Position numbers and translations under genes: made by a program. The notes under the pieces were generated by a model that did no database searches, was not told where the DNA came from, and saw only the letters and a program-made list of their open reading frames with translations. Positions 13,254 through 56,932 of a stretch of 64,000 nt of DNA are shown here, piece by piece. This DNA is from Arthrobacter sp. zg-Y844 (GTDB lineage Bacteria > Actinomycetota > Actinomycetes > Actinomycetales > Micrococcaceae): assembly GCF_024385465.1 (NCBI RefSeq), contig NZ_JANFLS010000001.1:744001-808000 (forward strand). The letters run 5' to 3'. Within the stretch, counting starts at the first letter, position 1. Each line of letters opens with the position of its first letter.

Positions 13254-15227
13254 ATGAGCACCACTGATCTTTCCCAAGACGCTGGCCGCAACCGAAGTGC
13301 CAGCAGAATCAAAGAGCGCGTGGTCACCGAACAGGACGCCCGCAACGCAACTGAAGCAGCACGCGATACCGGGGAATCCCGCCCGAGTTTCGCCAAGGGG
13401 ATCTACCTCGGCAATTACAACCTGGACCTGGTCGGCTCCCTGCCGCCGGCGGACCTCGACGAGGAGGCCCGCGCCCAGCTGTTCCTGGAAGCCTTGACCG
13501 AGTACTGCCGGACCATGGACGGACTGGCCATTGAACGCACCGGGGTGATTCCGGACGAGAACCTGCGCGGACTCGCGGATCTGGGGGTGTTCGGCATCAA
13601 GATCCCCCAGCACTACGGCGGGCTCGGACTGTCCCTGCTGAACTACGGACGCGCCCTGATGCTCCTGGGCAGCGTGCACCCCAGCCTGGGGGCACTGGTC
13701 TCGGCCCACCAGTCCATCGGCGTGCCGGAGCCGGTGAAGGTCTTCGGCACCGAGGAGCAGAAGGAAGAGTACCTGCCGCGCTGCGCCGCCGGGGCGGTGA
13801 CCGCGTTCCTGCTCACCGAGCCCGACGTCGGATCGGACCCGGCGCGGCTGCGCACCACGGCCATCCCCTCCGAAGACGGCAGCGAATACGTGATTGACGG
13901 CGTCAAGCTGTGGACCACCAACGGCGTGATTGCCGAACTGGTGGTGGTGATGGCCGCCGTTCCGCCGCACGGCGGTTCCAAGGGCGGCATCAGCGCGTTC
14001 GTGGTGGAAATGTCCTCCCCCGGCATCACGGTGGAGAACCGCAACAACTTCATGGGCCTGCGCGGCATCGAGAACGGGGTCACCCGCTTCACCAATGTCC
14101 GCGTTCCGGCGGCCAACCGGCTGGGCCGCGAAGGCCAGGGCCTGAAGATTGCCCTGACCACGCTGAACACCGGCCGCCTCTCCATCCCGGCCATGTGCGC
14201 GGCCTCCGGGAAGTGGTCGCTGAAGATTGCCCGCGGCTGGTCCGGTGCCAGGGAACAGTGGGGCCGGCCCATCGGCCGGCACGAGGCTGTGGCCAAGAAA
14301 CTCGCCTACATTGCGGCTACCAGCTTCGCGCTGGAGGCGGTCTTCGAACTCTCCGCCCAGCTCGCCGACGCCGGCACCAAGGACATCCGCATCGAGGCGG
14401 CACTGGCGAAGCTCTGGGCCAGTGAAATGGCCTACAACGTTGCCGACGAGCTGGTGCAGGTGCGCGGCGGACGCGGTTTCGAGACCGCAGATTCCCTCGC
14501 CGCCCGCGGCGAGCGCGCGGTCCCGGCCGAACAGCAGCTGCGGGACCTCCGCATCAACCGGGTATTCGAGGGCTCCACCGAGATCATGCACCTGTTCATT
14601 GCGCGGGAAGCCGTGGACGCGCATCTGTCCGCGGCAGGGGACCTGGCGGTGGCGGACGCCCCGGTGGGAGCCAAGGCGCGGGCTGCATTGAAGGCCAGCG
14701 GCTTTTACGGCAAGTGGCTGCCGACGCTCGCCGCGGGCAAGGGCAACGTCCCCACGTCCTACGCCGAGTTCGGCCTGTTGGCCCGGCACCTGCGCTACGC
14801 CGAGCGGGCCTCCCGCCGGCTGGCCCGTTCCACGTTCCTCGGCATGGCCCGCTGGCAGGCGGGACTGGAACACCACCAGGTCTTCCTGGGCCGGATTGTG
14901 GACATCGGCGCGGAAATCTTTGCGATCTCGGCCTCGTGCGTCCGCGCGCTGAACATCCGGCGCGAGGATCCGGCGGAGGGTGAAAGCGCGTTCGAGCTTG
15001 CGGACGCCTTCAGCCGGCAGTCCCGGGTGCGGATCGAGTCCCTGTTCGACGGGCTGTGGCACAACTCCGACGAGTCCGACCGGCGGCTGTCCAAGGGAGT
15101 CCTGGACGGTCGCTTCACCTGGCAGGAAAACGGTGTGCTGGATGCCTCCGAGGGGACGGGTCCGTGGATTTCGGAGACGGCCCTCGGCGACGAACCGAAG
15201 GAGAACCTGCACCGCCGGTACCGGTGA
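13254..15227 (+). CDS. Acyl-CoA dehydrogenase, long (VLCAD/ACAD9-like)
   Basis: 657 residues, longer than ordinary acyl-CoA dehydrogenases (about 380-400), with an extra helical C-terminal domain as in VLCAD/ACAD9. The central motifs are LTEPDVGSDPARLRTTA (FAD/substrate), KLWTTNGVIAELVVVMA, and IARGWSGAREQWGRPIGRHEAVAKKLAYIAA. The catalytic Glu is in RVFEGSTEIMHLF at about residue 440. It would oxidise fatty acyl-CoA to trans-2-enoyl-CoA in beta-oxidation. The start follows GGAGGAG. It converges with the TetR gene at 15231, their ends three bases apart. Confidence 0.9.
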   Translation: MSTTDLSQDAGRNRSASRIKERVVTEQDARNATEAARDTGESRPSFAKGIYLGNYNLDLVGSLPPADLDEEARAQLFLEALTEYCRTMDGLAIERTGVIPDENLRGLADLGVFGIKIPQHYGGLGLSLLNYGRALMLLGSVHPSLGALVSAHQSIGVPEPVKVFGTEEQKEEYLPRCAAGAVTAFLLTEPDVGSDPARLRTTAIPSEDGSEYVIDGVKLWTTNGVIAELVVVMAAVPPHGGSKGGISAFVVEMSSPGITVENRNNFMGLRGIENGVTRFTNVRVPAANRLGREGQGLKIALTTLNTGRLSIPAMCAASGKWSLKIARGWSGAREQWGRPIGRHEAVAKKLAYIAATSFALEAVFELSAQLADAGTKDIRIEAALAKLWASEMAYNVADELVQVRGGRGFETADSLAARGERAVPAEQQLRDLRINRVFEGSTEIMHLFIAREAVDAHLSAAGDLAVADAPVGAKARAALKASGFYGKWLPTLAAGKGNVPTSYAEFGLLARHLRYAERASRRLARSTFLGMARWQAGLEHHQVFLGRIVDIGAEIFAISASCVRALNIRREDPAEGESAFELADAFSRQSRVRIESLFDGLWHNSDESDRRLSKGVLDGRFTWQENGVLDASEGTGPWISETALGDEPKENLHRRYR

Positions 15228-15230
15228 GCC

Positions 15231-15842
15231 TTACGTTGCTCCCACCGCACCGCGGCAGATCTGCACATAGCGCACCGCCAGTTCCTCCGGGCTGAGCGGA
15301 CCTCCGGCGCGGTACCACTGGGACACTCCGGTGCACATGGTGGTGACCGCCCGGCTGGCGTCCTTGGGATGTCCGGTGGCGAAGCGGCCGCTGCGGACGC
15401 CTGCTGTCACCACGTCGTCGAGGAGTTTCTGCTGCCGGTCCCGGGCCGCGATGTGCGCGGCCCGGGCCGTGCCCTCCAGGCTGCGGATCTCGCTGGCCGC
15501 GATGAACGCGTGTTCCCAGCGGTAGGCATGGACCAGGACAAGGCATTCGATCAGCAGGGCAAAGCGGTCCTCAACGTCCTCGCCCGCCTCGGCGAGGGCG
15601 GCGGTGCTCCGGGCGTAGAGATCCGCCATCGCGGATTCGGCTATCCCCACCAGCAGCGCCTGCTTGGACGGATAGTGGTGGTAGAGCCCGGGCACCGACA
15701 AGCCGGCCCGGGTGGCCACGGTGCGGATGCTGGTCCCGTGGTAGCCGTGCTCCACAAAGCAGTCCAGCGCGTTGCGCAGCAGCGGCGGCAGGGCGGGCAC
15801 GGAAAAGTCGCGCCAGTCGGGCTGCGTACGGACTGCGGTCAT
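15231..15842 (-). CDS. TetR-family regulator of the SDR/ACAD/kinase operon
   Basis: 203 residues. The TetR helix-turn-helix lies at about residues 20-65 (LLRNALDCFVEHGYHGTSIRTVATRAGLSVPGLYHHYPSKQALL), followed by a C-terminal ligand domain of the type that often senses acyl-CoAs. It is transcribed divergently from the SDR, acyl-CoA dehydrogenase and kinase operon, with a perfect 20-bp operator-like palindrome between them. Repression of that operon and of itself is the natural inference. Confidence 0.9.
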   Translation of the reverse strand: MTAVRTQPDWRDFSVPALPPLLRNALDCFVEHGYHGTSIRTVATRAGLSVPGLYHHYPSKQALLVGIAESAMADLYARSTAALAEAGEDVEDRFALLIECLVLVHAYRWEHAFIAASEIRSLEGTARAAHIAARDRQQKLLDDVVTAGVRSGRFATGHPKDASRAVTTMCTGVSQWYRAGGPLSPEELAVRYVQICRGAVGAT

Positions 15843-32437: not shown

Positions 32438-33071
32438 GGATACCTCGCGGGGTTGTGAGCCGGCCGAGGCCGACCAGGAGAAGGTCAAGGATCAGGGCCA
32501 GCAGGATGACGCCGACGACGCCGACCACCACGGACTCGAGGGAGTTGGCCCCGCCCAGGCGGGACAGGCCGGTGAAGATGAAGCCGCCCAGTCCCGGGCC
32601 GAGGGCGTAAGCCGCGATGGCGGCAATACCCATCACCATCTGGGCGGACACCCGCACGCCGGCAAGGATGACCGGCCAGGCCAGCGGCAGTTCGATGCGC
32701 AGCAGCGTGCGCATCCGGCTCATGCCGACACCGCGGGCGGATTCCACGACGGTCGGGGAAATCCCGGCCAGGCCCACCACCGCGTTGCGCAGGATGGGCA
32801 GGGTGGCATAGAACGCCACCACGATCACGGCCGGCACGGCACCGAACCCGAAGGGTGCGATCAGCAGGCCGATCAGGGCGAAGGACGGCAACGTCAGGCC
32901 CACCGCGGAGACGCCGTTGGCCACTCCGCTGAGGGTCTTATTGCGGTAAACCAGGGCCGCAACAACCACGGCAATGACCGTGGCCAGGATCAGGCACTGG
33001 ACAACTAGGCTGAAGTGCTGCCATCCGGCGAACAGGATCTGCTGATACCGGTCCGCCACGAATTCCCACAC
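32430..33071 (-). CDS. ABC permease (OpuCB/ProW-like), first gene of operon
   Basis: 213 residues, six helices, sequence close in pattern to the permease at 30378: YATLPILRNAVVGLAGISPTVVESARGVGMSRMRTLLRIELPLAWPVILAGVRVSAQMVMGIAAIAAYALGPGLGGFIFTGL. It opens the four-gene operon permease-ATPase-permease-binding protein. Upstream are four 13-bp tandem repeats at 33122-33173, then a G-rich repeat block. Confidence 0.92.
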   Translation of the reverse strand: MWEFVADRYQQILFAGWQHFSLVVQCLILATVIAVVVAALVYRNKTLSGVANGVSAVGLTLPSFALIGLLIAPFGFGAVPAVIVVAFYATLPILRNAVVGLAGISPTVVESARGVGMSRMRTLLRIELPLAWPVILAGVRVSAQMVMGIAAIAAYALGPGLGGFIFTGLSRLGGANSLESVVVGVVGVILLALILDLLLVGLGRLTTPRGIRV

Positions 33072-33121
33072 ATCAAGACCTCTTCACTTTGGTTACGTAT
33101 GTTTCTTGTCGCCGCCCGGCA

Positions 33122-33173
33122 TTTGGTGTCCGTGTTTGGTGTCGGAGTTTGGTGTCCGAGTTTGGTGTCCGAG
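33122..33173 (-). repeat. Four 13-bp tandem repeats upstream of the osmolyte transporter operon
   Basis: Units of TTTGGTGTCCGAG: two exact copies at 33148-33173, one with a single change at 33135 and one with a single change at 33122. They lie 51-102 bases before the operon start, in the promoter zone. A regularly repeated 13-base unit suggests cooperative binding of a regulator or slippage-prone spacing, rather than coding. Confidence 0.85.
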
Positions 33174-33278
33174 CGAAAACTACCCAGCAACCTTACCGTT
33201 ACCTGCTTCACAAAGCGCTCCGAGAAGCTCCAAACCCGTACAACGTGATGTTTTTGCAACGGGCGGGCGGGGGGCTGA

Positions 33279-33386
33279 CCGGGGTGGGGGCCTTCGAGTG
33301 GGCCGGGGTGGGGGCCTTCGGGTGGGAGTGGTGGACCGGGGTGGGGGCCTTCGAGTGGGCCGGGTGGGCCGGGGTGGGGGCCTTCG
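33279..33386. repeat. G-rich repeat, four copies of an 18-bp core
   Basis: The core CCGGGGTGGGGGCCTTCG occurs four times (33279, 33303, 33336, 33369), separated by GAGTGGG- and GGTGGG-type linkers. Each copy carries GGGG and GGGGG runs on the plus strand, so intermolecular or intramolecular G-quadruplexes are possible. In translation it gives only repetitive Pro/Gly/His- or Val/Gly-rich peptides, so it is not treated as a gene. Confidence 0.8.
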
Positions 33387-33412
33387 GAGTGCCGGCTTCC
33401 CAATAGGCCTCA

Positions 33413-33471
33413 CCTTCTGTACAGCTGATGCTGTCCGCCGAGGCCCCAGGCCGCATCAGCTGTACAGAAGG
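33413..33471. repeat. 59-bp hairpin element (type B, copy 1)
   Basis: Perfect 19-bp inverted arms (left arm CCTTCTGTACAGCTGATGC) separated by 21 bases. A second copy of the same total length and layout lies at 35962-36020. The ends contain TGTACAG. No gene can be read through it. Confidence 0.92.
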
Positions 33472-33598
33472 CAGCACCGATGGGCCAGCCCAACTGGATT
33501 CCCACACTCTCTGGGACCCTTGTGGCTGCGGTTGTCGTTCCAGGAACACCAGCCCCGCTGGATGGGATCTTCTCTGTGGCGGTTCAGCGGTTGGACCG
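33472..33598. other. Repeat-derived intergenic stretch without a gene
   Basis: Contains an imperfect large stem, with ATTCCCACA near 33498 facing GGATGGGAT near 33560 and GTTGTCGTTCC facing GGAACACCAGCC. The segment GCCCCGCTGGATGGGAT resembles, in reverse complement, ATCCCATCCGGTGGTGC at 56526. It therefore looks like a diverged copy of the hairpin found in the 56.5 kb duplication. Similarity is partial. Confidence 0.5.
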
Positions 33599-33659
33599 GT
33601 TCATAGTGCAGTTGGCGTCCTCTGGCCGGTCCAGAGGCAGCATCTACTGCACTATGAAC
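33599..33659. repeat. 61-bp hairpin element (type C)
   Basis: Perfect 14-bp outer arms (GTTCATAGTGCAGT / ACTGCACTATGAAC) with an inner perfect stem CCTCTGG/CCAGAGG. The left end keeps GTGCAGTTGGCG, roughly parallel to TGTACAGNTGATG of type B, although its outer sequence differs. Confidence 0.88.
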
Positions 33660-33675
33660 GTGCGGGCGGCGTCGG

Positions 33676-33760
33676 TTGTACAGATAACGGGGCTAAGCCT
33701 CGTCCGGTGTACAGATAACGGGGTTATTCGGCCGGCATAAGCCCGTTATCTGTACACCGG
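33676..33760. repeat. 57-bp hairpin (type A) plus a half-copy
   Basis: The complete hairpin at 33704-33760 has 24-bp arms with one mismatch (GGTGTACAGATAACGGGG within the left arm) and a 9-base loop rich in GGCCG. A left half-copy TTGTACAGATAACGGGGCTAA sits at 33676-33696 in direct orientation. The core ATAACGGGGTTAT recurs in the hairpins at 56639 and 56876 with a different outer stem. The hairpin could also end the transcript of the minus-strand gene at 33826. Confidence 0.9.
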
Positions 33761-33825
33761 ATTTACGGCAACCGATTCTTCGCGCCCCCGGCGACGAGGA
33801 TCCCTGCGCAGCGGGCGACGTCCGG

Positions 33826-34278
33826 TCAGTGCCGGAAACCGAAACGCCCATCGACAACGTCCGGCAGGGCAACCACACCCTGGCGGCCGGGCCTCGGAAG
33901 CCCGCGCTGCTTCCGCACTTTCGCGGCCCGGAATTCCTTTCGCGTCGCCGCGGCGAGCCGGAAAGAACAACCGAGCATCACCGCCACGAGAATCGCCGCG
34001 AGGACTCTCAAGATCCAGTCGTCTGACGGGAAAAGGCCAACACCGGCGAAAAAGAGAATGAATACGGCATACATGATGAGGAGGATCACCCCCCGCACCC
34101 AGGAAGTGGGGTGATCCGACGGCGGAGCACCGTCGGGTCGGAACCCGAGTTCATCCGAGGCGTAACTCTGCAGATTGCCAAACTCCGTCCGATGAAGGAA
34201 TCGCTTCTCCCCCCGGGCCAGGAGCCGCCGGTGCTCTGCGAAGACTTCCTCGTCGGTGAGCAGCCTGTTCATTGTCAT
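33826..34278 (-). CDS. Small two-helix membrane protein, unknown
   Basis: 150 residues. A soluble N-terminal part with LLTDEEVFAEHRRLLARGEKRFLHRTEFGNLQSY is followed by two helices at about residues 63-82 and 87-105 and a basic C-terminal tail KEFRAAKVRKQRGLPRPGRQG. I do not recognise a family. Start may be either of two Mets (MTMNRL). It lies beside the hairpin array. Confidence 0.65.
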   Translation of the reverse strand: MTMNRLLTDEEVFAEHRRLLARGEKRFLHRTEFGNLQSYASDELGFRPDGAPPSDHPTSWVRGVILLIMYAVFILFFAGVGLFPSDDWILRVLAAILVAVMLGCSFRLAAATRKEFRAAKVRKQRGLPRPGRQGVVALPDVVDGRFGFRH

Positions 34279-34372
34279 TCGTCCCCCATCGTTGTCTGCG
34301 TGAAGTTATTCGATCCGGATTTCCGCCGGCAAAGGAAAGCATCTTGAGGACGTTGATAAGGGCACGTCCAGA

Positions 34373-35815
34373 TCAGCCCTGCCGCACGCGGGACCGAAGC
34401 CGGGCAAGGACGTGCTCCTCGGCGTCGGGCCCTGCCTTGATGCCCGCCGGCACCCGGAAGAAGAAGACCAGGCCGACCACCCACCACGCAGCGAACAGCG
34501 CCCAAGGCTCAAGCCCCAACGCCGCCGGCATGCCGGGCATGTAGAGGCTGAACAGGGCCAGGCCGAAGACGGCGGCGGCAATACCGATGATGATGCCGCC
34601 GTTGCCGCGTCCGCCGATCCGCAGCGGACGGTCCATGGCCGGTTCGCGGCGGCGCAGGATGAGGAATGAAATCGCCACCAGGGTGTAGGCCAGCACGATG
34701 CTGGGCGCCCCGGAGTCCACCAGCCAGCCGAGCATCTCCGCGCCGCCGAACGGCGCGAGGAAACTCAGAGCCCCGATGAACAGCAGAGCGTTGTGCGGGG
34801 TGTGATACTTCGGATGCAGCCGGCCGAACCAGGCGGGGAGCATGCCTGAACGGGCGAGCGAATACATCAGCCGGGACGCACCCATCAGCAGCGAGTTCCA
34901 CGAGGTGAGGATGCCTGCGATGCCGCCGGCAATCAGGATCTTGGCCATGATGTCCGATCCGAACATGGCTCCGACGGCGTCCGCCGTCGCAATGTCCGTC
35001 TGCGCCAAGTCGCCGGCGGACATTGCCGACGAGGTGGTCAGCACCACCATGAGGTACCAGATGGTGGCGAGCACCACGGAGACCACCACGAGCTTGCCGA
35101 TCTGCTTGGCGGGGATGTTCACTTCCTCGGCGGACTGCGGAATAACGTCGAAGCCGATGAACAGGAAGGGCACCACCACCAGGACCGCGAAGAACCCGGT
35201 CATGCCGTTGTTGATCCACGGCTCCATGTTGGCCACGGACCCTCCGGTGAAGGACCCGGCAATCATCACCAGCCCGATGGCCAGCAGGAACAGCACCACG
35301 AAGGTCTGCACCACGCCCGCTTCCTTCACGCCGCGGATGTTGATCCAGGTGATGACGACGGCGGCAACCGCCCCTACCAGCGCCCAAGTCAGGTGCACAT
35401 CGAAGCCCGCCACGGTCCACAGGTGAATCTGGCTCAGGTCCGGGAAGATGTACTGCACCGTGCGGGGCAGGGCAACGGCTTCGAAGGCCACGATGGTCAC
35501 ATAGCCGCCGATGATGGCCCAGGATCCGATGAAGGACGTCCGCGGGCCCATGGCGCGCATGATGTAGTTGTGCTCGCCGCCGGCCTTGGGCATCGCCGCG
35601 CACAGCTCGGCGTAGGTCAGTCCGACCACCGCCATAATGACGCCGCCGGTCAGCATGGCCAGCACCGAGCCGAGCGTGCCGGCATTGATCAGCCAGTCGC
35701 CGGTGAGCACCACCCAGCCGAAACCGATCATTGCGCCGAACCCTAGGGCCAGGACGTCGATCCGGCCGAGGACTTTCTTGAGCGAGGGCTCGGTTTCGTG
35801 GAGCGAGGTTCCCAC
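34373..35815 (-). CDS. APC-family amino acid permease
   Basis: 480 residues, about 12 helices. Typical APC stretches are IDVLALGFGAMIGFGWVVLTGDWL at the unwound first helix, YAELCAAMPKAGGEHNYIMRAMGPRTSFIGSW and FLFIGFDVIPQSAEEVNIPAKQIGKL (the GFD/GFE position). The sequence is nearer the APA/ethanolamine-type carriers than the LAT branch, but substrate cannot be called. The start is GTG after GGAAAGGGG; the longer upstream frame is Arg/His-rich and lies in the promoter. Confidence 0.9.
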   Translation of the reverse strand: MGTSLHETEPSLKKVLGRIDVLALGFGAMIGFGWVVLTGDWLINAGTLGSVLAMLTGGVIMAVVGLTYAELCAAMPKAGGEHNYIMRAMGPRTSFIGSWAIIGGYVTIVAFEAVALPRTVQYIFPDLSQIHLWTVAGFDVHLTWALVGAVAAVVITWINIRGVKEAGVVQTFVVLFLLAIGLVMIAGSFTGGSVANMEPWINNGMTGFFAVLVVVPFLFIGFDVIPQSAEEVNIPAKQIGKLVVVSVVLATIWYLMVVLTTSSAMSAGDLAQTDIATADAVGAMFGSDIMAKILIAGGIAGILTSWNSLLMGASRLMYSLARSGMLPAWFGRLHPKYHTPHNALLFIGALSFLAPFGGAEMLGWLVDSGAPSIVLAYTLVAISFLILRRREPAMDRPLRIGGRGNGGIIIGIAAAVFGLALFSLYMPGMPAALGLEPWALFAAWWVVGLVFFFRVPAGIKAGPDAEEHVLARLRSRVRQG

Positions 35816-35961
35816 CCGGCACCCCTTTCCATGTCGTGCCGCCCTAAAGGGGCAAGTGATGACGCAGTGTGGACACGGAGAGTGGCTCCGGCTGCGTTGA
35901 CGGAAGAACAACGCTAATGCACTTTGTGTTCGCGGTCACATCTATACGTCACGGGGGCTCA

Positions 35962-36020
35962 CCTTGTGTACAGGTGATGCTGCTTGACCTGGTTCCAGGC
36001 GGCGTCACCTGTACAGAAGG
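35962..36020. repeat. 59-bp hairpin element (type B, copy 2)
   Basis: Same length (19+21+19) and layout as the copy at 33413. Left arm CCTTGTGTACAGGTGATGC pairs with the right arm with two mismatches. Where copy 1 has CAGCTGATGC/GCATCAGCTG, this copy has CAGGTGATGC/GCGTCACCTG, so the stem base changed on both sides together, which indicates conservation of pairing. It lies 147 bases upstream of the APC permease start, between that gene and doxX. Confidence 0.9.
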
Positions 36021-36064
36021 CGGCGCCCTGCGGGGTGTTCCTGCAGGATTTCCCGCTCACTGTG

Positions 36065-36190
36065 ATGGAGGTTGTGCGGGGACGACGCCGGGCACGGCGG
36101 CGGGAGAAGGAGAAGGCCCGGCTGCTGCAGGCGAAGGCGGCGGCTCGGGAAGAGAAACGCCGCGCCAGGATGCAACAGGCCGCGCCCTGA
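36065..36190 (+). CDS. Possible small basic peptide, 41 aa
   Basis: An ATG-started frame of 41 codons following hairpin B2: a strongly basic alpha-helical peptide (MEVVRGRRRARRREKEKARL, then repeated AREEKRRAR). About 40% of residues are Arg or Lys. No ribosome site is visible, and it converges on doxX with a 9-base gap. High-GC DNA readily gives Arg-rich false frames, so this is weak. Confidence 0.25.
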   Translation: MEVVRGRRRARRREKEKARLLQAKAAAREEKRRARMQQAAP

Positions 36191-36199
36191 CCCGCCGGG

Positions 36200-36658
36200 T
36201 TAGCCCTTCAGCGCCGCCCGCAGTTCCTTCCACGCCCCGGTGGACCACAGCGCCCACAGCACCAGCGGCGGCTGGAAGAACAGCCGCACCAGCCGGGCGC
36301 GGTCCGAATCCAGGCCGAACGCGTCCGTGTGGGTGACGTACTGGGAAATGTTGCCCGGGAAGATCCCGATAAAGAACGCCGCCGCGGCAAGCCCAACCGG
36401 CACCCGGCGTTTCCGCAGCAGGATCAGCGCCGCACCCAGGCTGATTTCGGCCACGCCGGAGAGCAGCACCACGGCATCCTCGTTCAGCGGAACCCAGTCC
36501 GGCACCTGCGCCTGGAACTCCTGCCGGGCGAAGGTCAGGTGCGAGGTCCCGGCGAAGGCCAGGAACGAACCGAGGGCAACGGCGCCGATGCGGCGGGGTT
36601 TCGACGTCGGCGGCGCGGGGCGGGAAGCAAGGGCAAGGACCTTCGAGATGGCAGACAT
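36200..36658 (-). CDS. DoxX-family membrane protein
   Basis: 152 residues with four helices of the DoxX/DoxD-like family: GAVALGSFLAFAGTSHLTFARQEFQAQVPDWVP, LLSGVAEISLGAALILL, VGLAAAAFFIGIFPGNISQYVTHTDAF. The GVAEISLGA helix is characteristic. Role in the family ranges from redox partner to unknown; nothing in the neighbourhood narrows it. Confidence 0.85.
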   Translation of the reverse strand: MSAISKVLALASRPAPPTSKPRRIGAVALGSFLAFAGTSHLTFARQEFQAQVPDWVPLNEDAVVLLSGVAEISLGAALILLRKRRVPVGLAAAAFFIGIFPGNISQYVTHTDAFGLDSDRARLVRLFFQPPLVLWALWSTGAWKELRAALKG

Positions 36659-56511: not shown

Positions 56512-56695
56512 GGGGCCGGACAGGACATCCCATCCGGTGGTGCCGTTGTGGCGGATGATTTCCCACAAGCAACAGCAGCACCACCCTGTGGGACGCTGTG
56601 CTGGCGCTGCGGATGCTCCAGCCTGCACAACTCATCGACTGAGCAGTTAATGGGGTTATGGCCGCCCGATAACCCCGTTATCTGCTCAGTAGATC
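56512..56695. repeat. Duplicated intergenic unit, copy 1, with hairpins
   Basis: First of two direct repeats of about 185 bases. From 56570 on, about 117 bases match copy 2 with only two or three changes. Inside are an imperfect large stem (ATCCCATCCGGTGGTGC near 56526 facing GCACCACCCTGTGGGA) and the hairpin at 56639-56689: CTGAGCAG stem, TAACGGGG-type inner stem and a 9-base loop. The last is type A with a different outer stem. A right half-copy (CCCGTTATCTGCTCAG) lies at 56715-56730. Confidence 0.9.
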
Positions 56696-56747
56696 CGGGA
56701 CCCCTGCCCACAAGCCCGTTATCTGCTCAGCAGATCCGCCCGGAATC

Positions 56748-56932
56748 GGGGCCGGACAGAGGATCCCACCAGGTTGTGCTGTTGTGGCAAATGGGGTGCC
56801 CCAAGGCAACAGCAGCACCACCCTGTGGGACGCCGTGCTGGCACTGCGGATGCTCCAGCCTGCACAACTCATCGACTGAGCAGTTAATGGGGTTATGGCC
56901 GCCCGATAACCCCGTTATCTGCTCACTAGATG
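56748..56932. repeat. Duplicated intergenic unit, copy 2, with hairpins
   Basis: Second direct repeat, starting 236 bases after copy 1. The large stem here is TCCCACCAGGTTGTGCTGTTG facing its near-complement around 56807-56829. The type A hairpin lies at 56876-56926, with the last base of the stem changed. A degenerate half-site CTGCTCAGTAG lies at 56968. The two copies explain short identical reading frames seen here, which are not genes. Confidence 0.9.

Follow-up and report, generated by a model that had tools for sequence, protein, structure and literature searches.

The question raised by this locus is what a set of short palindromes, different in letters and alike in fold, represents in the genome of an Arthrobacter. 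The locus, referred to as the window, is the whole stretch of 64,000 nucleotides that was analysed in Arthrobacter sp. zg-Y844, and six hairpins, A to F, are located in it. These hairpins are best explained as parts of a selfish, perhaps partly tamed, element of the chromosome: they would be its recognition sites and, scattered over the genome, its non-autonomous copies, and its autonomous form would be one AbiEi-like/Vsr-type gene between two such hairpins. A rough probability of 0.6 is assigned to this reading. An earlier note on the window had described the hairpins as a dispersed family with co-varying stems, resembling repetitive extragenic palindromic (REP) elements and their REPIN doublets, miniature inverted-repeat transposable elements (MITEs) or a family of structured RNAs.

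A nuclease-like gene between two hairpins

The 41-nt core of the hairpins, CAGNTRAYG-N23-CRTYANCTG, is present in 37 of 197 genomes of the bacterial family and in 13 of 32 genera, with no match for the reversed control in any of the 197. Its copy number is patchy, with 12 core hairpins in the genome of zg-Y844, none in 8 of the 11 congeners sampled and 32 in genome G173. Those of the 32 dispersed hairpins that were read (L099, L103, and L105) are mostly of the AGTTTTTGTACAGCTAATGCCC kind.

In three genomes of three genera, two core hairpins lie 1.06-1.08 kb apart and each interval encloses a homologous open reading frame of 316-323 amino acids, these frames being 37-49% identical. At the loci L095-L097, this gene is the only open reading frame between its two hairpins. 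Of the 197 genomes of the bacterial family, 150 have a match to the gene family, and so do 184 of 296 genomes in a sample of the class. The former have 1-11 matches each; as scoring was limited to 11 candidates in any one genome, these counts are lower bounds. The few annotated records of the gene family that were seen bear the label hypothetical or DUF559. Arthrobacter-like nuclease genes also occur in records labelled Sporosarcina and Acidobacteria (L264, L266, and L276), whose assemblies are possibly contaminated.

The pairing of gene and repeat is well supported. It was analysed with flanks of 350 nt in two partly overlapping sets, one of 90 loci, among which L123 and L145 are the same gene, and one of 80 named loci. 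Of these 170 loci, 166 gave an open protein; 140 remained after removal of those at least 95% alike and 138, mostly from Arthrobacter relatives, had enough flank. A hairpin of at least 40 nt was present within 350 nt of the gene at 101 of the 138 non-redundant loci, and on both sides at 58, compared with 2 of 137 and 0 of 137, respectively, in a far control 950-1300 nt away. The hairpins have a median length of 59 nt; the median distances from the gene are 67 nt between the end of the upstream hairpin and the start codon, and 5 nt between the stop codon and the beginning of the downstream hairpin. Intergenic regions beside the gene contained a hairpin in 110 of 185 cases versus 12 of 95 elsewhere in the same loci (p 1e-14).

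Left and right hairpins usually match each other and differ between loci. A repeat common to the upstream and downstream flanks (score at least 40) was found at 56 of 90 loci versus 1.8% of mismatched pairs, with 1 of 90 in the far control and none of 10000 permutations reaching this value. The named set, from which two of the 80 loci were dropped for short flanks, gave 52 of 78 versus 2.5%, with 3 of 77 in the far control and again 0 of 10000 permutations. Outside the bacterial family, where one of 27 loci was dropped as short, the flank repeat was present on both sides at 20 of 26 loci (4.2% for mismatched pairs, 0 of 26 in the far control); with a slightly laxer cut-off, a hairpin was detected at 19 of the 26, at 13 of them on both sides and at one in the far control. 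In several of these outside genomes, the gene is flanked by hairpins containing TTGATCATGG or GATCATGG (L378, L379, L381, L385, L387, L390, and L392).

The same association is seen at the level of genomes. The gene is present in all 25 genomes with at least two hairpins of the CAGNTRAYG type, as against 150 of 197 overall (p 0.0008), and in 34 of the 37 with at least one (p 0.011); G135 and G145, which are absent from the 150 genomes with a match, were scored as lacking the gene.

The encoded protein of about 315 amino acids is predicted to consist of an AbiEi-like region at residues ~60-150 and a C-terminal nuclease domain of the Vsr/EDxHD type. PADLOC models of AbiEi match 23 of 23 proteins at residues ~61-148 (best E 2.8e-12). 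Matches in Pfam are all weak and comprise MTES_1575 in 14 of the 23 proteins, DUF559 in 10 and AbiEi_1 in one; NCBIfam gave nothing for the first three proteins and one weak DUF559 match in the 23. MTES_1575 is described as a Vsr-family nuclease domain in the passages available from PMC3710099. A sequence search of the PDB returned 3hrl at E 0.005 and two more entries near 0.7. The AlphaFold2 model of the zg-Y238 protein, built with 62 sequences, has a pLDDT of 95.2 and a pTM of 0.91. According to Foldseek, the nearest useful fold in the PDB is the EDxHD catalytic domain of I-Bth0305I (3r3p; probability 0.99, TM-score 0.74 on the target, E 0.089), other useful matches being Vsr (0.92) and 3hrl (0.91).

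Candidate active-site residues are E207, D241, and H258, present in 88 of 88 proteins, and D267 in 87 of 88, the role of each being a tentative reading. The residues found in all 88 include D203, S204, E207, R211, D241, G255, H258, and W279. A dN/dS of 0.11-0.23 in 14 of 15 pairs, one pair being not computable and dS being saturated in several, points to purifying selection on the protein. Eighteen loci were listed as broken or partial. Fifteen named loci were at first read as genes split near residue 87-90; this is an artefact of domain splitting around some 16 extra residues, and in the six of these loci that were inspected the frame is open throughout.

Half-sites, hairpin types and their dispersal

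The building block of the family is a half-site of about 16 bp, TGNNCAGNTRAYGNNG. Two half-sites facing each other at a fixed offset form a hairpin, and extra copies lie in tandem, 31 or 41 bp apart. With up to one mismatch, the half-site has 14 matches in the window versus 3.8 expected, a number reached in none of 100 shuffles. The exact pattern has 19 matches in the 3.37-Mb genome of zg-Y844 versus one for the reversed control, and a few of the 19 look like chance matches inside genes. In relatives, half-sites form tandem arrays, with steps of 31 bp in G009 and G010, at the place orthologous to hairpin C, and of 41 bp elsewhere; the arrays end in a single inverted copy, at offset 33. The hairpin that the earlier note took for the repeated unit is real, but the block that is repeated is the half-site with its helically spaced copies rather than the hairpin alone.

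Spacings were counted over all fetched loci with up to one mismatch, identical contexts being counted once, so that related arrays are not independent of each other. The 101 direct pairs within 100 bp lie at 31-32, 41-43, 51-52, 62, 71-74, 82-84, and 92-97 bp, with one at 45 bp, spacings that approximate whole numbers of helical turns (R 0.87 at 10.4 bp). Facing pairs number 106; most of them (66) are 32-33 bp apart, one is 21 bp apart, and the spacing of the remaining 39 is about 33 bp plus one direct-pair step. There are also 22 diverging pairs. Because the spacings of direct and facing pairs fall near helical turns, the half-site looks as if it were read in double-stranded DNA.

The hairpin, or its symmetry, would also matter, because parts of the stem that are not conserved stay complementary. 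In 82 hairpins from the fetched loci, less than 85% identical and with the core within one mismatch, stem columns not fixed by the search pattern are paired in 78% of cases, and as many as six pair types occur at a position; sliding one arm by 1-3 bases lowers the pairing to 34-48%. This bears out the claim that stem changes are compensated and that the fold is kept. The earlier note held that its reading would fall if no further copies existed or if stem changes were random; besides the paired stems, further copies have been found both in the genome of zg-Y844 (exact half-site, 19 versus 1) and in relatives (core in 37 of 197 genomes).

For both flank types tested, T3 and T4, further copies are scattered over the genomes that carry the flank. 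The T3 half-site has 22, 14, 12, and 7 matches in the four panel genomes with known T3 flanks, of which 19, 10, 8, and 5 are away from the gene. The other 22 of the 26 panel genomes have three matches in total and the reversed control has one in total; no T3 match is present in G037, which bears a related but different variant (L197). The T4 half-site has 58, 15, 3, and 3 matches in four carriers, the last two with one match each away from the gene, while other genomes and the reversed control have 0-3 per genome.

Four sister species have the gene at one locus. Neighbouring genes are 85-90% alike, and the gene of G116/G047 is only about 65% alike in its alignable parts. Both hairpins bear the same species-specific half-site in G116/G047 (CCATAGGATG) and in G097 (CCGTAGGTG). 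Across loci, protein and hairpin differences are correlated with a rho of 0.26, above all 500 permutations, and no single domain stands out. A cut site at the hairpin centre, considered for G116/G047 from flank homology restarting there, was dropped; a diverged but complete hairpin is present on both sides.

In zg-Y844, one match to the gene family was found, outside the window (contig C4:289092-290039). Its neighbours, named from reading their sequence, are presumably accC-like and maf-like genes, and its closest named relative is that of Arthrobacter sp. zg-Y238 (88% identical). Six C-type half-sites (up to two mismatches) lie behind the gene with the layout + 33 - 40 - 38 + 33 - 41 -, and the same GTACAGATAACGGGG hairpins stand behind the gene at L205 and L206, from near named relatives. 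The accC-maf-like locus of G016 and G018 has A-type half-sites, and the half-site kind of hairpin A is found beside the nuclease gene in G016 (L117) and G018 (L119/L435). On the best explanation, C, E, and F would belong to the nuclease type of zg-Y844 itself, and A and D to a sister type occupying the same chromosomal locus in related species.

The hairpins of the window and their surroundings

The features of the window are listed in the table. All six hairpins are where the earlier note had placed them, except that the arms of E and F begin a few bases earlier, and they fold far better than shuffled sequence, with z between -5 and -10 and 0-1 of 200 shuffles equally good. The two lone half-sites had been overlooked, as had the fixed geometry.

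Hairpins and lone half-sites in the 64-kb window (z, fold compared with shuffles)
Feature	Position	Strand	Description
Hairpin A	33413..33471		half-sites TGTACAGCTGATGC, offset 33; z -8.3
Hairpin B	33599..33659		degraded copy, type read e.g. ATAGTGCAGTAGATGC in relatives; z -5.1
Lone extra half-site TGTACAGATAACGGGG	33677..33692	+	31 bp before left half-site of hairpin C
Hairpin C	33704..33760		half-sites TGTACAGATAACGGG, shared with the array that follows the nuclease gene of zg-Y844; z -10.0
Hairpin D	35962..36020		A-like, TGTACAGGTGATGC; z -5.2
Hairpin E	56635..56693		C-type variant, TGAGCAG; z -6.2
Extra half-site	56714..56729	-	41 bp after right half-site of E; layout + 33 - 41 -, like array behind own nuclease gene
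Hairpin F	56872..56930		near-duplicate of E, within ~237-bp direct duplication; z -5.1

The claim that the hairpins are confined to intergenic DNA was also confirmed, since all six sit between likely genes. Mechanically predicted frames overlap A, B, C, E, and F and have a weak coding character (third-position GC 0.67-0.75 versus about 0.85-0.95 for most of the likely genes); a 68-codon frame overlapping D has a value of 0.81. Direct repeats abutting the six hairpins reach at best 4, 3, 0, 3, 3, and 0 nt, where 24% of random places reach at least 4 nt and the true ends of the element are uncertain. B-type copies are better preserved in relatives (L321 and L324; e.g. ATAGTGCAGTAGATGC in G020). 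The region of E and F is 98% alike in G020, which is of the same species, and hairpin D was not found at the corresponding place of that genome. A G-rich short repeat (GGCCGGGGTGGGGGCCTTCG-like) is located at ~33250-33390, directly before hairpin A. A second palindromic repeat (TCCCAC...GTGGGA-like) lies ahead of E and F at 56528-56593 and ~56760-56830, and similar stretches occur near other hairpins of the same genome.

The segment 33071-36200 is the site of a variable island. Its permease gene is present in 5 of 12 genomes of the genus, zg-Y844 included, and was not found in G020. Relatives carry other inserts at this site, which are often bordered by hairpins and, judged by coordinates, reach ~25 kb in G018. 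At L324 (G028), hairpin clusters at 2522-2676 (left, B-C) and 15117-15455 (right, A-B-C) bound an insert of 12.5 kb, and the A-B-C triple of the window recurs there as a composite of about 350 bp. A large gene inside this insert was read by eye and is taken to be type I restriction-like.

Mechanism, rival explanations and known systems

For the hairpins as sites and copies of a nuclease-bearing element, we infer binding, cutting, and copying by break repair. Two protomers would bind the two inverted half-sites, about 59 bp overall, and the nuclease would cut between or beside them. Repair of the break could then copy hairpins to new places, expand or contract the tandem arrays and homogenise the pair of hairpins at the gene. 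Related precedents exist in the passages available from two sources. AbiEi is described there as binding palindromes, both those of promoters and others (PMC11062541), and I-Bth0305I as forming a dimer on a target almost 60 bp long (PMC3943268).

Several observations weigh against this reading. No hairpin was detectable at 37 of the 138 gene loci, three of the 37 core-hairpin genomes, with one hairpin each, lack the gene, and the hairpins of the two sides are unlike at some loci, e.g. L118, L120, L124, and L180. In G074, the half-site is CCGTGGTTG on one side and CCGTAAGTG on the other. G173, with its 32 dispersed hairpins, has matching flanks at neither of the two loci examined out of four nuclease loci; G089 does have a matching flank (L192). 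The genome of zg-Y844 itself contains A-, B-, and C-type hairpins and one gene match, which leaves two types without a known present partner. The correlation between protein and hairpin is weak and could reflect shared descent, and duplication of 31- and 41-bp units can account for part of the helical spacing. Regarding the protein, Pfam scores are under the curated cut-offs in all four proteins for which cut-offs were shown, Foldseek gave no match at E<=0.001, and mitoribosomal proteins, with poor TM-scores, outrank I-Bth0305I by E-value. As to mobility, the few loci compared included neither a clean empty site nor an insertion polymorphism, and no target-site duplication was seen at the six window hairpins, the ends of the element being uncertain. 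The gene sits at conserved places, namely the accC-maf-like locus in the genus and the one locus in four sister species, and is therefore largely inherited vertically.

The alternative that fares best, which nevertheless appears unlikely, is autoregulation combined with a wider network. The AbiEi-like protein would then mainly be a regulator with the hairpins as operators at its own gene, the dispersed arrays would be operators of a regulon or nucleoid-organising sites, and the nuclease would have a host role, e.g. in defence or repair. The PADLOC AbiEi matches in 23 of 23 proteins are consistent with this, as are the known binding of AbiEi to promoter palindromes and other sites (PMC11062541, in its available passages) and half-sites placed on helical turns (R 0.87 at 10.4 bp). 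Furthermore, the gene is of low copy number and rare on mobile replicons, with tblastn of one member as query finding it in 6 of 72,556 plasmid records and 1 of 50,697 phage records. Against it, hairpins flank the gene on both sides, including positions at and after the stop codon. Lone dispersed hairpins, the wholesale change of type between loci and large differences in copy number between genomes look like a population of repeats rather than a regulon, and inner and outer stem bases are complementary though not conserved.

It is improbable that the nuclease gene is a mere hitch-hiker, that is, cargo inserted at hairpin-rich, recombination-prone intergenic sites without dealings with the hairpins. 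The window region at 33.4-36.1 kb is indeed a place of variable islands, the borders of which bear hairpins in several relatives, and at some gene loci the two hairpins are unlike. Against the cargo reading stand the left and right hairpins that match per locus far above mismatched pairs, the tight distances from the gene (medians of 67 nt before the start and 5 nt after the stop) and the same species-specific change in both hairpins at one orthologous locus in G097 and G116/G047.

Still less credible are transcription terminators, mRNA-stabilising hairpins or a structured RNA family, the last of which the earlier note had offered as an option. Strong conserved stems with compensated changes would fit an RNA, but half-sites also occur alone or in direct tandem, where no RNA hairpin forms, and the sequence is fixed at CAG.TRAYG. 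The five terminator-like matches in 33000-36300 all lie elsewhere than hairpins A-D, and rho-independent terminators were rejected on this ground; an Rfam family was likewise rejected, with 0 matches at the gathering score anywhere in the 64 kb.

REP/REPIN elements moved by a Y1 (RAYT) transposase can practically be dismissed: singlets, inverted doublets, and tandem clusters do form a REP-like layout (cf. the available passages of PMC3116915), but Y1_Tnp (PF01797) was found in neither zg-Y844 nor 11 of the 12 relatives scanned (5 of 14 control genomes were positive), none of the six window hairpins has GTAG at its 5' foot on either strand, and the gene that is flanked is a different one. The only Y1 transposase among the 13 genomes scanned is at G137:C33:153990-154352. 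Of the REP/REPIN-like reading in the earlier note, the dispersed, intergenic and fold-conserved character holds, whereas the Y1/REP-type transposase mentioned there as a mover to look for was not found in zg-Y844 or in 11 of 12 relatives; the gene that accompanies the hairpins encodes an AbiEi-like/Vsr-like protein.

Nevertheless, judged by the parts of PMC3116915 and PMC3733652 available, the REPIN-RAYT system (REPtrons) is the nearest analogue of the hairpins and their gene. In both, half-units can stand alone, form hairpins as inverted doublets or cluster in tandem, here dispersed and intergenic. Both also have a gene of low copy number and mostly vertical inheritance that is flanked by the repeat, and further copies of this repeat lie near the gene as well as far from it. 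The differences are that the enzyme is AbiEi-like/Vsr-type instead of a Y1 HUH transposase, that the GTAG foot is lacking, and that the whole hairpin is ~59 nt with a half-site offset fixed per type. The analogy suggests a REP/RAYT-like partnership built on a different, unrelated enzyme.

EDxHD homing endonucleases such as I-Bth0305I share the predicted catalytic fold, candidate acidic and His residues conserved in a plausible order and a long two-part site of ~60 bp. In contrast to I-Bth0305I, the gene is not in an intron, the putative target flanks it instead of being interrupted by it, an AbiEi-like region takes the place of the phage DNA-binding modules, and cleavage is only predicted. AbiEi antitoxins of type IV toxin-antitoxin systems are similar in the region matched by PADLOC (residues ~61-148) and in binding palindromes, but here this region is joined to a nuclease domain and the gene is the sole open reading frame between the hairpins at L095-L097. 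Proteins with DUF559 or REase_MTES_1575 (Vsr-like) domains are linked to the family by weak Pfam matches (10 of 23 and 14 of 23, respectively), and the literature passages available on them mention no association with repeats.

MITEs and CGTC-tagged REPs are likewise small palindromic dispersed repeats. The CGTC REPs reportedly have no dedicated transposase (PMC3733652, in part), and, unlike with MITEs, no target duplication was seen here, the element ends being uncertain. In the accessible part of the RepRanger source (PMC12306157), an Arthrobacter genome appears once in a table. Among the matches listed in openly licensed PMC literature, subscription papers and preprints being outside this scope, there is no description of the gene-hairpin pairing.

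At even odds, the hairpins and their gene form a class of their own among mobile or selfish repeat systems, one that is widespread in actinobacteria and in which an EDxHD/Vsr nuclease with an AbiEi-like DNA-binding region would be bracketed by its own recognition hairpins and these would be copied genome-wide by break and repair. New specificities would arise as protein and hairpins change together, and the system would be a non-transposase counterpart of REPIN-RAYT. Some dispersed bacterial palindromes have no known enzyme, and here a single gene family is linked to such palindromes at well over 100 loci. Should the nuclease act on the hairpins, the REPIN-RAYT way of life would have been arrived at a second time, by unrelated means. 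Nature would also have supplied a collection of nucleases paired with their targets, in which the sequence on either side of each gene reveals many specificities, and the spread of small palindromes would become a directly testable question.

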